Shown here piece after piece: positions 34,851-53,646 of a stretch of 64,000 bases of DNA. Position numbers and translations under genes: made by a program. Origin of the DNA: Olsenella massiliensis (GTDB lineage Bacteria > Actinomycetota > Coriobacteriia > Coriobacteriales > Atopobiaceae). How positions within the stretch are numbered: position 1 is the stretch's first letter; each line of letters begins with the position of its first letter. The notes beneath the pieces were generated by a model. That model saw only the letters and a list, made by a program, of their open reading frames with translations. It had not been told where the DNA came from and did no database searches. The stretch covers positions 186,001 through 250,000 of the forward strand of contig NZ_LN898211.1 in assembly GCF_001457795.1 (NCBI RefSeq). Direction: 5' to 3'.

Positions 34851-35828
34851 CTAGGGGCGCACCTCGTGCTTGGGTTCGCGCCCGTGCACGAGGACGTCGA
34901 TGACGGCGTCAAGGGCCATGCTGGTGAGGGTGTCCAGGGCCTCCTCGGACACGAAGGCGGCGTGGGGGGTCACCAGGCAGCGAGGGTGGTCTATGAGACG
35001 CTGGTCACGACGTGTCTCGTTCGTGAGCACGTCCAGGCCGGCGGCCCGGATCTGTCCGGCGTCGAGGGCGGCGACGAGCGCGTCCTCGTCGATCACGGCG
35101 CCGCGGGCGGTGTTGACCAGGAGGGCCGTGGGCTTCATGAGGCCCAGCTCGCGGGCGCCGATGAGGCCCCTGGTCTGGGGGATGAGCGGGCAGTGGAGGC
35201 TCACGACGTCAGCGTCCGCGAGCAGCTCGTCGAGCGTCGCGGCCTTCTCGCATCCTGCCGCCGCGAGGCATGCCTCGTCCTTGGTGGGGGCCCATGCCAG
35301 CACGCGCATGCCCAGCGCCTTGGCAAGGGGCACCATCTGCCGCGCGATGTTGCCAAAGTACACCAGGCCCAGGGTCTGGCCTTGGGTGCGGCGCATCGCG
35401 TAGCCGTGATGGGGGTCCCAGCCGCCGGCCAGGACGTCGCGATTGAGGAAGGTGGTCTGACGCATGAGGTCGAGCATGAGGGAGAGGGCGTGGAGGGCGA
35501 CGTCCTGCGCGCAGTATCCGGGACAGTTGGCCACCAGGACGCCGTGCTCCCTCAGGCCCCCCACGTCCACGTGGTTGATGCCCACGGACATGCTCACCAC
35601 GAGCCTGACGCCCGCGTCGGCGACGAGCTTGACGTCATCGCCCGAGACGGGCATGAGCTCGCCCAGGACGGCCTCCTGCCCGGCGAGCTCGTCGGCCGTC
35701 GGACATGTGAAGGGGGCATGGGCGAGGCTGGTGACATCAAAGGCGTCCGCGAGCCCTCGGGACGCAAGGTAGGACTCGGCGCGTCGCGCGTCGCCGTCCA
35801 CCGTATACAGCAGAATCCTATGGGCCAT
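34851..35828 (-). CDS. D-2-hydroxyacid dehydrogenase (NAD-dependent)
   Basis: This 325-residue oxidoreductase of the D-lactate/glycerate dehydrogenase family reduces a 2-oxoacid with NADH. The dinucleotide-binding segment is GLVYFGNIARQMVPLAKALG (about residues 145-165). The catalytic triad lies in LVNTARGAVIDEDAL (Arg), AGLDVLTNE (Glu) and VTPHAAFVSEEAL (His). AGGAGG precedes ATG 35828. It is divergent from the pcrA-type helicase. A 55-bp stretch 85% identical to the end of this gene reappears inside the helicase gene next to a sequencing-adapter sequence, implying a paralogue or strain variant. The exact substrate is unknown. Confidence 0.94.
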   Translation of the reverse strand: MAHRILLYTVDGDARRAESYLASRGLADAFDVTSLAHAPFTCPTADELAGQEAVLGELMPVSGDDVKLVADAGVRLVVSMSVGINHVDVGGLREHGVLVANCPGYCAQDVALHALSLMLDLMRQTTFLNRDVLAGGWDPHHGYAMRRTQGQTLGLVYFGNIARQMVPLAKALGMRVLAWAPTKDEACLAAAGCEKAATLDELLADADVVSLHCPLIPQTRGLIGARELGLMKPTALLVNTARGAVIDEDALVAALDAGQIRAAGLDVLTNETRRDQRLIDHPRCLVTPHAAFVSEEALDTLTSMALDAVIDVLVHGREPKHEVRP

Positions 35829-35972: not shown

Positions 35973-37733
35973 CATGCCCAGTTTCAACGAGTTCCAGGCC
36001 AAGCTCTTCACCATGAGGCCCGTGGGGCCCCCGCCCTCGCCTGCCCAGGGCGACAAGCCAGCGCCGCCGGCGCCCGCCGCCGACCGCGCGCGACGTCGGG
36101 CGAGGTGGACCTCGCGAGCCTGAACCCCTCCCAGCGCAAGGCCGCGACGACCACCCGCGGGCCGCTGCTCGTGCTCGCCGGCGCGGGTTCGGGCAAGACG
36201 CGGGTGCTCACCTATCGCATCGCGCACATGATCGCCGACGAGGGCGTGCGTCCCTGGGAGGTCCTCGCCATCACCTTCACCAACAAGGCCGCGGCCGAGA
36301 TGCGCGAGCGCCTGGGGACCCTGCTTCCGGGCGGCACGCGCGGCATGTGGGTGTGCACCTTCCACGCCATGTGCGTGCGCATGCTGCGCGAGGACGCCGA
36401 ACGCCTGGGATATGACGGCAACTTCACGATCTATGATGACGACGACTCCAAGCGCCTGGTCAAGACCATCATGAACGAGCTCGACCTCGATCCCAGGCAG
36501 AACCCCCTGCCCACGGTCAGGTCCATGATCAGCCAGGCCAAGAACGCGCTCGTCCTTCCCGACGAGTTTGACGCGCAGGCCACCTCGCCCCTCCAGCTTG
36601 CCTGCGCCCGCGTGTACCACGCGCTCCAGCGACGGCTTGGGCGGGCCAACGCCATGGACTTTGACGACCTGCTGGTGAAGGCGTTTGAGCTTCTGTCCAA
36701 GCACCCCGACGTGCTCGAGCGCTATCAGGACCGCTTCCGCCACATATCAGTGGACGAGTATCAGGACACCAACGCGGTGCAGTACGCCATCACGAACCTG
36801 CTCGCGTCCAAGCATCGCAACCTCATGGTCGTGGGTGACGACGACCAGTCCATCTACAGCTGGCGCGGGGCCGACATCAAGAACATCCTGAGCTTCAGGC
36901 AGGACTACCCAGACGCCGTGGTGGTCAAGCTCGAGCAGAACTACCGCAGCTTTGGCCACATCCTGAGCGCCGCCAACGCCGTGGTGCGCAACAACTCCCG
37001 CCGCGAGGAGAAGCGCCTCTTCACGGACAGGGGCGACGGCCACAAGGTCGAGGTCTTCCAGGCGGCGGACGAGCGCGACGAGGGGCGCTGGATCGGCGCC
37101 GAGATCGAGAGGCTCCATGATGACGGCCGCAGCTATGACGACGTCGCCGTGTTCTATCGCACCAACGCCCAGTCGCGCATCCTCGAGGACATGTTCCTGC
37201 GTGCGGGCGTGCCCTACAAGATCGTGGGCGGCACGCGCTTCTTCGACCGTGCCGAGATTCGTGACGTCACGGCCTACCTCAAGCTGGTCGTCAACCCTAA
37301 CGACGACGTGAGCGCCCTGCGCGTGGTCAACACCCCTCGCAGGGGCGTGGGCACCACCTCCATCCGCCGCGTGCGCGACTACGCCGCCCAGGAGGGCCTC
37401 TCGTTCGTGGACGCGGCGCGCATCTGCGCCGCCGAGCCGGGGCTGCTGGGCGCCAAGGCGCGCGGCGGCCTGGCCGAGTTCACGGGCGTGGTGGACGCGG
37501 GCAGGTCCTATGCGGGCGAGCTCGCGCGGGTGGTCGAGGCCATCGTCGAGAAGGCCGGCATCATCCGCGCCTATGAGGCGGAGCAGAGCGTGGAGGCGGA
37601 CGGCCGCATCGAGAACGTCCGCGAGTTCCTCTCGGTGGCGCAGGAGTTTGACGAGACGCACGAGGACGCCGCCGAGACGCTCGAGTCGCTGCGCCAGCTC
37701 AGGGAGGCGGGGGTCTGTCCCCTTCCACCATCT
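35973..37733 (+). CDS. pcrA: PcrA/UvrD-type ATP-dependent DNA helicase, 5' part (frameshifted and interrupted)
   Basis: This encodes motifs I-IV of a superfamily 1 3'-5' DNA helicase used in repair and in clearing replication blocks. LNPSQRKAATTTRGPLLVLA precedes Walker A AGAGSGKT (36178-36201). VDEYQDTNAVQYA, GDDDQSIYSWRGAD and LEQNYRS follow. The natural start appears to be ATG 35973 (AAGGAG upstream; MPSFNEFQAKLF), but that frame stops at 36121, and the helicase domain runs in another frame, open from GTG 36105. A one-base indel near 36070-36104 is therefore likely. The reading frame breaks again at 37734, where a Nextera mosaic end is inserted. Motifs V and VI lie in the 3' part. Confidence 0.88.
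37710..37722. other. Imperfect palindrome GGGGTCTGTCCCC just before the adapter
   Basis: GGGG-TCTGT-CCCC is followed by TTCCACCATCT and then the mosaic end. It translates to nothing helicase-like (VCPLPPSR), so the foreign or mis-joined sequence may begin here rather than at 37734. Whether the motif recurs in this genome is unknown. Confidence 0.5.
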
Positions 37734-37752
37734 AGATGTGTATAAGAGACAG
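37734..37752. other. Exact Tn5/Nextera transposase mosaic-end adapter sequence
   Basis: AGATGTGTATAAGAGACAG is identical over all 19 bases to the mosaic end used in Nextera tagmentation libraries. Its six-frame translations give the well-known contamination peptides VYKRQ, CIRDR and LSLIHI. It interrupts the helicase gene and has no accompanying transposase or second end, so it is a library artefact carried into the assembly. Confidence 0.97.
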
Positions 37753-37807
37753 GCGCTTGGGGTCGCGCCCGCGTGCCAGGACGTCGTTGACCGCGTCAAG
37801 GGCCATG
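37753..37807 (-). other. Fragment of a second D-2-hydroxyacid dehydrogenase gene (3' end), misplaced
   Basis: These 55 bp match 34866-34920 at 47 of 55 positions without gaps. On the minus strand they encode MALDAVNDVLARGRDPKR, the C-terminal helix of a dehydrogenase like the one at 34851-35828. The homology may extend a few codons further left in protein terms (to about 37830). It abuts the mosaic end exactly, so it is read as part of a chimeric molecule from a paralogue or from another strain. Confidence 0.85.
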
Positions 37808-38551
37808 CGTGCCGTCACGTCGGAAGGTCCCGCCACGAGCGCTCCCGCGCCCGTGGCGGCCGAGAAGCTCCCCGCCTTCATGGAGTGGCTGGCCCTGCGC
37901 TCGGACCTCGACGCCCTTGACGGGCAGACGAGCGCCGTCACGATGATGACGATTCACTCCGCCAAGGGCCTGGAGTTTCCGGTGGTCTTCGTCGCGGGCA
38001 TGGAGGAGGGCATCTTCCCGCATCGCGGCAAGGAGGATGACCCCGCCAGCATCGAGGAGGAGCGACGTCTGGCCTACGTGGCCATCACCCGTGCGAAGGA
38101 GCGCCTCTACCTGACCCACGCCTCCACGCGTCACGTGTTCGGGTCGGTGCAGGCCAACCCGCGCAGCCGCTTCCTTAACGAGATGCCCGAGCGGGACGTG
38201 CATGCCGTGGGCGTGGGGTCGTCAGGCCTCACGGGCGTGGGCTGGGCCAAGCGCGGCGACCGCCACGGCACGTTTGGGTCGGGACGTGGCTCGCAGGTGT
38301 ACGGCGGCAACGTCTTTGGCTCGCGCACGCGATCGACGGGAGGTGCCCCCTCCCGCCCCGCGCCCATCCACAAGGATCCCGCCAAGGCTGCCGAGAGCTT
38401 CGCCGTGGGCGACCAGATCTCCCACAAGACCTTTGGCCCGGGCGTGGTCAGGGCGGCCTCAGGCGACACCATCGAGGTGTACTTCTCGCGCACGGGCAAG
38501 ACCAAGAAGCTCATGAAGGGCTTTGCGCCCATCGTCAAGATCGAGGGCTAG
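37808..38551 (+). CDS. pcrA: PcrA/UvrD-type DNA helicase, 3' part
   Basis: This is the continuation of the interrupted helicase in a different frame from the 5' part. Helicase-like sequence resumes by about 37860 (KLPAFMEWLALRSDLDALDG). It then shows motif V TIHSAKGLEFPVVFVAGMEE and motif VI EEERRLAYVAITRAKERLYL, followed by a Gly/Ser/Arg-rich linker and a C-terminal domain FAVGDQISHKTFGPGVVRAA typical of PcrA's Tudor-like tail that contacts RNA polymerase. The exact 5' boundary is uncertain because the join with foreign sequence lies between 37807 and about 37860. With the artefact removed, the intact protein would be about 830 residues. Confidence 0.88.
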   Translation, partial: RAVTSEGPATSAPAPVAAEKLPAFMEWLALRSDLDALDGQTSAVTMMTIHSAKGLEFPVVFVAGMEEGIFPHRGKEDDPASIEEERRLAYVAITRAKERLYLTHASTRHVFGSVQANPRSRFLNEMPERDVHAVGVGSSGLTGVGWAKRGDRHGTFGSGRGSQVYGGNVFGSRTRSTGGAPSRPAPIHKDPAKAAESFAVGDQISHKTFGPGVVRAASGDTIEVYFSRTGKTKKLMKGFAPIVKIEG

Positions 38552-49952: not shown

Positions 49953-52318
49953 TTGAAGCTCGTAGTCACAGAGAAGAACGATGCCGCCCAGCAGATAGCG
50001 CGCCTGCTCGCCAGCGTGGGCAAGCCCAAGGCCGAAAAGGTCTATGACACCCCGGTCTATCGCTTTGCGCATGACGGCGAGGAGTGGGTCACCATCGGCC
50101 TGCGCGGGCACATCATGGCGCCCGACTTTCCCCATGAGCTGCGCTATGACGACGCCGAGGGCTGGCATGTCATCAGCGAGGAGGGCGAGGTGATTCCCGC
50201 CGCCGTTCCCGACGCCCTGGCCAAGCCTCCCTACGACAGCAGGCGCAAGCCCTTCCTCAAGGACGGCATCGACATCAAGGGCTGGAAGGTGGCGAGCCTT
50301 CCCTACCTCGTGTGGGCCCCCGTCGAGAAGCTTCCCGCCGAGAAGGGCATCATTCGCGCCCTCAAGAACCTGGCCAAGAAGGCGGACTCCATCGTCATCG
50401 GCACCGACTTCGACCGCGAGGGCGAGCTCATCGGGTCGGACGCCCTGCGTCAGATGCGAGAGGTGGCGCCTACCACGCCCGTCTCGCGCGCCCGCTACTC
50501 GGCCTTCACGAAGGCCGAGATCGACCACGCCTTCGCCCATCTCGTCGAGCTCGACCAGGACCTCGCGGACGCCGGCGAGAGCCGTCAGTACATAGACCTC
50601 ATCTGGGGCGCCGTGCTCACGCGCTACCTCACGATGGCGCGCTTCGGCGGCTTTGGCAACGTGCGCTCCGCCGGTCGCGTCCAGACGCCCACGCTGGCCC
50701 TCGTCGTCGAGAAGGAGCGCGAGCGCGAGGCCTTCGTCCCCGAGGACTACTGGGTGCTCTCGGGCACGCTCGCGCCCGCCGGCCAGCGCGGCGACGACGC
50801 CACGTTCCGCGCGACCCATCGGACGGCGCGCTTCAAGGACGAGGCCGCGGCACAGGCGGCCGCAACACGGGTCAAGGACGCCCGGAGCGCCCGCGTCACG
50901 GGCGTCGAGACAAAGAGCCGCACCACCCGTCCCCCCGCGCCGTTCAACACCACCTCGCTGCAGGCGGCCGCGGCGTCGATCGGCCTCTCGCCCTCGCGCA
51001 CGATGCGCGTGGCCGAGTCGCTCTACATGGACGGCCTCATCTCGTACCCGCGCGTGGACAACACGGTCTATCCCCGTTCGCTCGACCTGCGCGACTGCGT
51101 GAGGACGCTCTCGGCGGTGCCGCAGTACCGGCCCTGCTGCAAGGAGCTCCTCGCCAAGGACAGGCTCACGGCCACGCGCGGCAAGCAGGAGACGACCGAC
51201 CACCCGCCCATCTATCCCACGGCGGCGGCCGACCCCGACAAGCTGGACGGCGCCTCGTGGAAGCTCTACAACCTCATAGCCCGCCGCTTCCTGGCGACGC
51301 TCTCGGAGGCGTCGGTGAGCGAGTCGACCAAGCTTGCGCTCGACGTTGGCGGCGAGCCCTTCGTGGCCTCGGGCACCGTCGTCGTCAAGCCGGGGTTCAG
51401 GGCCATCTACGGCTTCGGCCAGAAGAAGGACGAGCTGCTGCCCGCCCTCGCCGTGGGCGACGCCTGCGACGTGCTCTCCATGACGCTCGACGCCAAGCAG
51501 ACCGAGCCCCCGGCCCGCTACAGCCAGGGACGCCTCATCCAGGAGATGGAGAAGCGCAACCTGGGCACCAAGTCCACGCGGGCGAGCATCATCCAGCGCC
51601 TGCTGGACGTCAAGTACATCAAGAACGACCCCGTCGAGCCCAGCCGCCTGGGCATGGCCGTCATCGAGGCGCTGACGACCTACGCGCCGCACGTCACGAG
51701 CCCCGACATGACGGCCGAGCTCGAGGCGGACATGACGAAGGTCGCGGAGGGCGCCGACACCCAGGACCAGGTGGTCACGCACTCGAGGGCGCTCCTCGCG
51801 GGCATGGTCGACGCCCTCATCGAGCACAAGGAAGACCTCGGGAACGCCATCGCCGACGCGGTGACGGCCGACGCCAAGGTGGGCGTATGCCCCAGCTGCG
51901 GCAAGGACCTGGTCATGAAGAGCTCGGCCAAGACGCGCGGCCGCTTCATCGGCTGCATGGGCTGGCCCGACTGTGACGTCACCTATCCCGTCCCCTCCAA
52001 CGTCAAGGTGGAGCCCCTGGAGGGCGATGCCGGCGTATGCCCCAGCTGCGGCGCTCCGCGCATCAAGTGTCGGCCCTTCCGCTCCAAGGCCTACGAGCTC
52101 TGCGTCAACCCCGCCTGTCCCACCAACGTCGAGCCCGACGTCATCGTGGGAGAGTGCGCCGCGTGCAAGACGGCGGGTCGTCACGGGGACCTCGTGGCCC
52201 ACAAGAGCGAGAAGACGGGCAAGCGCTTCATCCGCTGCACCAACTACGACGAGTGCCAGACGAGCTACCCGCTGCCCCAGCGCGGCGAGCTGCATGCCAC
52301 GGGCGAGACCTGCCCCAG
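49953..52318 (+). CDS. topA: DNA topoisomerase I (type IA, archaeal-like), truncated at the C-terminal zinc ribbons
   Basis: This enzyme relaxes negative supercoils. About 789 residues are left. The Toprim domain starts at residue 1 (LKLVVTEKNDAAQQIARLLA) with the metal motif GTDFDREGELIG (about 150-161). The nucleophile is Tyr365 in LISYPRVDNTVYPRSLD, the form found in archaeal-type enzymes. Zinc ribbons begin at about residue 646 (CPSCGKDLVMK...CMGWPDC), with a second (CPSCGAPRIKC...C) and a third (CAAC...CTNYDEC). A fourth starts CP and then the sequence leaves the gene at about 52318, where CPSCG would be expected. The TTG start follows GAAGGGAG. The frame runs on artificially into the antisense of pgm and galU to 53060. 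Confidence 0.92.
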
Positions 52319-52514
52319 ACAGCACCTCCCCCACCACGGCGGCGAGCCCCGAGGACTTCTTGCGTCCGTCAAAGCCCACGTAGATGGGGCCGACAGCGCC
52401 CTGCTCGACCCACCGGCGCGCGAGGGCGGCCGCGACGGAGCTCACGCCCTCCTCGTCGAAGGCGCGATCAAAGCGGTCAAACCACCCGTTGACGCCAAAC
52501 TTGATGGCGCGCAT
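52319..52514 (-). CDS. Phosphoglucomutase/phosphomannomutase family protein, N-terminal fragment
   Basis: Only the first 65 or so codons of an alpha-D-phosphohexomutase are present. The start MRAIKFGVNGWFDRFD corresponds to the family's FGTDGWR opening, and YVGFDGRKKSSGLAAVVGEV is the strand-helix before the active-site serine loop. The catalytic Ser and metal site are missing. It begins 9 bp after the galU stop, so galU-pgm forms an operon making UDP-sugars. The gene runs head-on into truncated topA at about 52318, indicating a mis-join. No strong ribosome site is seen; coupling to galU is likely. Confidence 0.85.
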
Positions 52515-52523
52515 CTACGGGCC

Positions 52524-53435
52524 CTACTCGCTCAGCAGCCCTGCGGCCTTGGGACCGAGCGCCTCGACGAAGGCCTCCCTGACAGACTCGTCCGTCAGGG
52601 CCATGCGGGCGTTTGTCGCCGCCCAGGCGGCCGGGGTGCCGGTGTCACAACCCTCCTCGGGATCAACGACCAGGGCGTACATGTCCTCCTCGGCCAGCAG
52701 CCGCTGCATGGCGTCCGTAAGCTGAATCTCGCCGCCGGCGCCGGCCCCTTGCGTGGCGAGCAGGTCCATGATGTGCGCGGAGAGCAGGTAGCGCCCCACG
52801 ATGAACAGGTGGCTCGGGGCGTCCTGCACGGCCGGCTTTTCGACGAGGCCGCTCACCTTCCACACGGCGCCGGCGGACTCCTCGTCCGCGGGAACCTCGC
52901 CCGACAGCCCCTCGACGCAGCTCCCGGCGATGATGCCGTAGCGACTCACCTGGTCGGCCGGGACGGGAGCCACGGCGATGACGGAGGCGCCGCCATGCGC
53001 GTCCGAGACGCGCTTCATGTTGACGCACATCTGCCGGTCGGGAACGAAATAGTCGCCTAGGAGCACGAAGAAGGGCTCGTCGCGCGTGACGTCGGCGGCG
53101 CAGAGGACGGCGTGGCCCAGCCCGCGCGGCTCGTCCTGGTAGACGAAACTGACGGGAAGCGAGCCTGCGGCATGAACCGCGTCCGCCTCGGCCTGCTTGC
53201 CACGGTCGCGAAGCTGGTCCTCGAGACCGCCGTCCACCTTGAAGTACGATTCGATCTGCGGCTTCTCGCGCGAGTTCACGATGACGACGCCGTCAACCCC
53301 GGCGGGCTCGAGCGCCTCCTCGACGACATACTGGATGACCGGCTTGGTGAGCACCGGCAAGAGCTCCTTGGGCGTCCCCTTGGTAGATGGGAGGAAGCGG
53401 GTCCCCAGACCAGCCGCTGGAATGACTGCCTTCAC
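52524..53435 (-). CDS. galU: UTP--glucose-1-phosphate uridylyltransferase
   Basis: This 303-residue nucleotidyltransferase makes UDP-glucose from UTP and glucose-1-phosphate for envelope glycans. The GTG start (complement 53433-53435) gives VKAVIPAAGLGTRFLPSTKG, the nucleotide-binding loop, followed by PKELLPVLTKPVIQYVVEEA. PRGLGHAVLCA, LLGDYFVPD (metal aspartate) and GVEKP-like LVEKPAVQDAPS are all present. AAAGGAG precedes the start. It is followed by the pgm fragment, whose product would supply glucose-1-phosphate. The stop at 52524 is intact, so galU itself is not affected by the nearby topA/pgm break. Confidence 0.97.
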   Translation of the reverse strand: MKAVIPAAGLGTRFLPSTKGTPKELLPVLTKPVIQYVVEEALEPAGVDGVVIVNSREKPQIESYFKVDGGLEDQLRDRGKQAEADAVHAAGSLPVSFVYQDEPRGLGHAVLCAADVTRDEPFFVLLGDYFVPDRQMCVNMKRVSDAHGGASVIAVAPVPADQVSRYGIIAGSCVEGLSGEVPADEESAGAVWKVSGLVEKPAVQDAPSHLFIVGRYLLSAHIMDLLATQGAGAGGEIQLTDAMQRLLAEEDMYALVVDPEEGCDTGTPAAWAATNARMALTDESVREAFVEALGPKAAGLLSE

Positions 53436-53646
53436 GAATCGTCTCCTTTCGGTCCATGTCACAACGACCGCCCCCACGTCAGGCGGGACGGGCGGCACTC
53501 GTTCATTGCGTAAGGATACCCCGCGACGACGAGGCGGCCAAAGGCTGGCTCGCAGATGGCGTGCCGTGCCGCCTTATCGCGCGTGTGCGCGCGGCGGCCC
53601 ACAACTTGGACACAAACGTTGACGTGGGCAAAAACGAGGGCGGCGC

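Follow-up and report, generated by a model that had tools for sequence, protein, structure and literature searches.

In the window, a stretch of 64,000 nucleotides of Olsenella massiliensis DNA, the topoisomerase I gene topA and the galU-linked phosphoglucomutase gene pgm are cut at one and the same place (52305-52316), each of them without its 3′ end. We conclude that this break is almost certainly a mis-join of the assembly, an artefact and not biology; of biological novelty there is none. The initial annotation had left the choice between a mis-join and a recent deletion/inversion. The former is supported by the topA tail found behind an adapter on another contig, by the absence of the pgm 3′ end and by the untrimmed adapters, and on the same evidence the latter is clearly less favoured. 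That two housekeeping genes are broken at one point was borne out by the comparison with relatives. However, the two genes converge, and the geometry previously described as head-to-head is therefore wrong: the join is tail to tail. The word compatible with both genes, GAGACCTGCCCC, extends over 12 bp and not over the 8 bp or so first reported.

The window is part of a 903-kb contig (C13) of an assembly of 13 contigs and 1.82 Mb, estimated as 97% complete with 0.3% contamination. Five short contigs (C1 and C5-C8) read wholly as N in the copy analysed. Judged by topA, the relatives belong to Olsenella and allied Atopobiaceae; four congeners were among the genomes compared, and G004 and G002 are closed same-genus genomes. 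The features discussed below are collected in Table 1.

Table 1. Features at the topA/pgm join and at the interrupted helicase gene (positions in the window).
Feature	Position	Strand	Remark
Mate-pair junction adapter and foreign sequence	37715-37848		Adapter at 37715-37752, exact mosaic end at 37734-37752; interrupts a UvrD/PcrA-type helicase gene
topA (topoisomerase I)	49953-52316	+	Intact through the first CxxC half of the fourth zinc ribbon, remainder absent
Chimeric reading frame, 1,035 aa and stop	49953-53060	+	Open, spurious
GAGACCTGCCCC, 12-bp join	52305-52316		Fits topA (GETCP) and pgm (GAGL, minus strand)
AGACAG	52317-52322	+	Either genuine pgm (codons for LS) or six bases left over from the Nextera mosaic end
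galU-linked phosphoglucomutase/phosphomannomutase (PGM_PMM_I), first ~70 codons	52305-52514	-	Remaining ~400 of ~468 codons missing
galU	52524-53498	-	Intact, upstream neighbour of pgm

The topA gene reads cleanly from TTG 49953 and is 85-86% identical to its counterparts in congeners. As in topA of the Coriobacteriia type, which has four C-terminal zinc ribbons, the Toprim and Topoisom_bac domains and the first ribbons are intact (Pfam); unlike that type, the window copy is devoid of the fourth ribbon and the tail, the final codons being located on contig C2. At the DNA level, identity with same-genus topA is 81-85% up to position 52316 and then drops to 34-39% (ungapped, chance level), as determined with three aligned relatives, a fourth (L004, wrong orientation) being left out. 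The fourth ribbon ends at ATGETCP in the window, and it is kept by topA in 80 of the 80 named relatives. Most of these relatives continue with C[DEH]CGAP[ILM]. The AG following GAGACCTGCCCC is unsupported by topA relatives, which have a codon for D, E, H or A at this place and never one for S. The search of the own genome for the fourth ribbon of topA gave only weak, unrelated or self matches. Furthermore, neither galU nor pgm was found near topA in the 80 named relatives (flanks up to 5 kb).

On the minus strand, the PGM_PMM_I domain was recognized (Pfam E 6e-7) behind the start codon ATG 52514. The similarity to relatives was followed to about codon 70 (VLSGAGL, 52305), further than the 65 codons or so at which the gene had been thought to stop. 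As in relatives, where galU stands beside pgm in 24 of 29 loci, the gene begins just behind an intact galU; unlike the galU-linked pgm of relatives, it is cut at ~70 of ~468 codons. The 3′ portion of a galU-type pgm was not found in the assembly contigs (C1 and C5-C8 being N only). Two pgm-like matches, at C13:469008 and C13:881325, were taken as separate paralogues and not as the missing end: they are 25-27% identical, and one lies in a 466-codon frame. The reading frame that crosses the join to 53060 is open and artificial, as proposed; its length had been overstated by one residue (1,036), and it reaches 1,058 aa if read from GTG 49884. Beyond the junction this frame has no Pfam match. It is a spurious by-product of the join.

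The flanks of the junction come from separate loci in closed relatives. In G004 topA and pgm are separated by ~625 kb, in G002 by ~780 kb (round the circle). The left side of the junction shares synteny with the surroundings of topA in G004, including a UvrD/PcrA-type helicase gene ~13 kb upstream, and the right side with the galU-pgm region of that genome. The genes behind topA in closed same-genus genomes are tmk, holB and ricT (the latter two names assigned from sequence and usual gene order) and one further gene, in this order; in G004, additional genes separate tmk from holB. In our assembly, tmk is found at C2:280-909, and the same contig (3.4 kb) also carries holB and ricT. The start of C11 holds the gene next after ricT, its first bases reading as the ricT end, and the gene order from C2 to C11 is the same as in closed G004 and G002. 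C2 opens with ~190 bases of junk; next come a poly-T stretch and the Illumina P5 adapter (matching at 53 of 54 aligned positions), and after these an in-frame topA-like tail (SGSGDGSAEGR*, ~11 codons) with its TAG stop one base before the ATG of tmk. Such a contig start is what adapter read-through typically leaves behind. Measured against G004, the assembly lacks only ~130 bp of topA. The search of other contigs for the missing ends, which had been recommended, thus located the last topA codons on C2 after the adapter and returned nothing for the pgm 3′ end.

Behind galU-pgm, closed G004 has an rRNA operon, as read from a 5.2-kb repeat that matches two places at 90%. Our assembly has a copy of such an operon from base 3 of C13 onwards and another inside C11. 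The missing pgm end is most simply explained by an assembly gap in front of a repeat. Two mate-pair junction adapters ~120 bases apart were also seen at C13:277065-277224, near the genes that follow the pgm-downstream rRNA operon of G004.

Further technical artefacts were found in the assembly, namely the P5 adapter on C2, the Nextera mosaic end (mate-pair adapter) and a broken helicase gene. Allowing up to two mismatches, the mosaic end has 29 matches in our assembly and none in four congeners; 54 of 60 genomes are free of any match, and the reversed-pattern control gave none in any genome. Many of these mosaic ends form the head-to-head mate-pair junction CTGTCTCTTATACACATCTAGATGTGTATAAGAGACAG; this 38-base sequence has been described as a circularisation adapter (PMC7357533). 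The exact adapter word AGATCGGAAGAGC has just one occurrence in the assembly, on C12, and was less informative than the mosaic end and the P5 adapter of C2. In the helicase gene, about 136 bases that are unmatched in congeners replace about 59 bases and shift the frame, and congeners are uninterrupted at this site. Of this insert, ~96 bases beyond the adapter resemble positions 34868-34921 of the window (87% over 54 bases); a source at this distance of about 3 kb fits a mate-pair read. This adapter junction, on the same contig and 14.6 kb from the topA/pgm join, supports the mis-join diagnosis.

On the real chromosome, topA most likely continues through the fourth zinc ribbon into tmk-holB-ricT (C2, then C11), and galU-pgm would continue into an rRNA operon. 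As the assembly lacks ~130 bp of topA and the greater part of pgm, these continuations are drawn from gene order and from the tail on C2. Sequence was presumably lost or poor at both sites, on the topA side through adapter read-through and on the pgm side over some 1.2 kb ahead of the rRNA repeat; the two unrelated contig ends would then have been stitched at the shared 12-bp word. We infer that this overlap triggered the join, the software step responsible being probably the scaffolding or the gap filling with a Nextera mate-pair library. The case resembles chimeric contigs of short-read bacterial drafts with untrimmed adapters, in which a short shared word likewise links unrelated loci, missing ends lie on other contigs or in gaps, and adapter is found at contig ends and inside contigs. 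Unlike in such contigs, the join itself (52305-52316) contains no complete adapter, which counts against a mis-join.

Alternatively, the artefact may go back to a chimeric molecule in the library and not to a software overlap; AGACAG would then be what is left of a partly trimmed mate-pair adapter. This route is possible though rather unlikely, and its probability overlaps with that of the mis-join because it is one way for the artefact to arise. The hexamer, in either orientation (AGACAG/CTGTCT), occurs just seven times in 64 kb and stands exactly at the join, and mate-pair junction adapters remain at many sites of the assembly. As proof of an adapter at the join, however, it is weakened by the presence of LS at this position in some pgm relatives, which makes it equally compatible with real pgm sequence. 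The pgm similarity appears to continue through AGACAG to VLSGAGL, which favours a plain 12-bp overlap; moreover, mate-pair junctions join loci ~3 kb apart, as the one at 37.7 kb seemingly does with sequence from 34.87 kb, and not loci separated by hundreds of kb.

A real event in the strain is unlikely. A microhomology-mediated inversion or translocation that cut both genes, its reciprocal junction falling in an assembly gap, would fit the 12 bp of apparent microhomology and the lack of a complete adapter, and the gene order of the strain may differ from that of its relatives. We nevertheless regard it as very improbable: the topA tail still stands directly before tmk, and two housekeeping genes would have been damaged together, one of them in a ribbon that none of the 80 named relatives has lost. 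No junction of the topA tail with the pgm tail was found in the assembly, where it could hide only in a gap, and no intervening genes are lost, tmk, holB and ricT all being present. If true, this rearrangement would leave a topoisomerase I without its fourth zinc ribbon, fused to about 246 out-of-frame residues, and the galU-linked phosphohexomutase would be lost. A simple deletion of everything between topA and pgm, which would account for both 3′ ends missing at one point, has a negligible probability. It cannot yield the join because the genes converge, and an inversion would be required as well; the genes expected at the break (tmk, holB and ricT) are retained, and the topA tail is in its normal place.

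The interest of this finding is one of quality control only: completeness checks were passed by the genome, yet adapter-bearing false joins are present. Such joins give rise to chimeric or broken housekeeping genes, and fusions, truncations and gene order taken from this genome call for checking.

Adapter sequence was observed at other places. On C12 (~193,070-193,200), an apparent rnhB just downstream of an rplS-type gene is broken by a TruSeq adapter in degenerate form together with a perfect mate-pair junction adapter. The exact mosaic end also occurs in the assemblies of three relatives, G012 (18 copies), G059 (9) and G052 (2), mostly at contig ends; untrimmed adapters are therefore a wider problem in such drafts.
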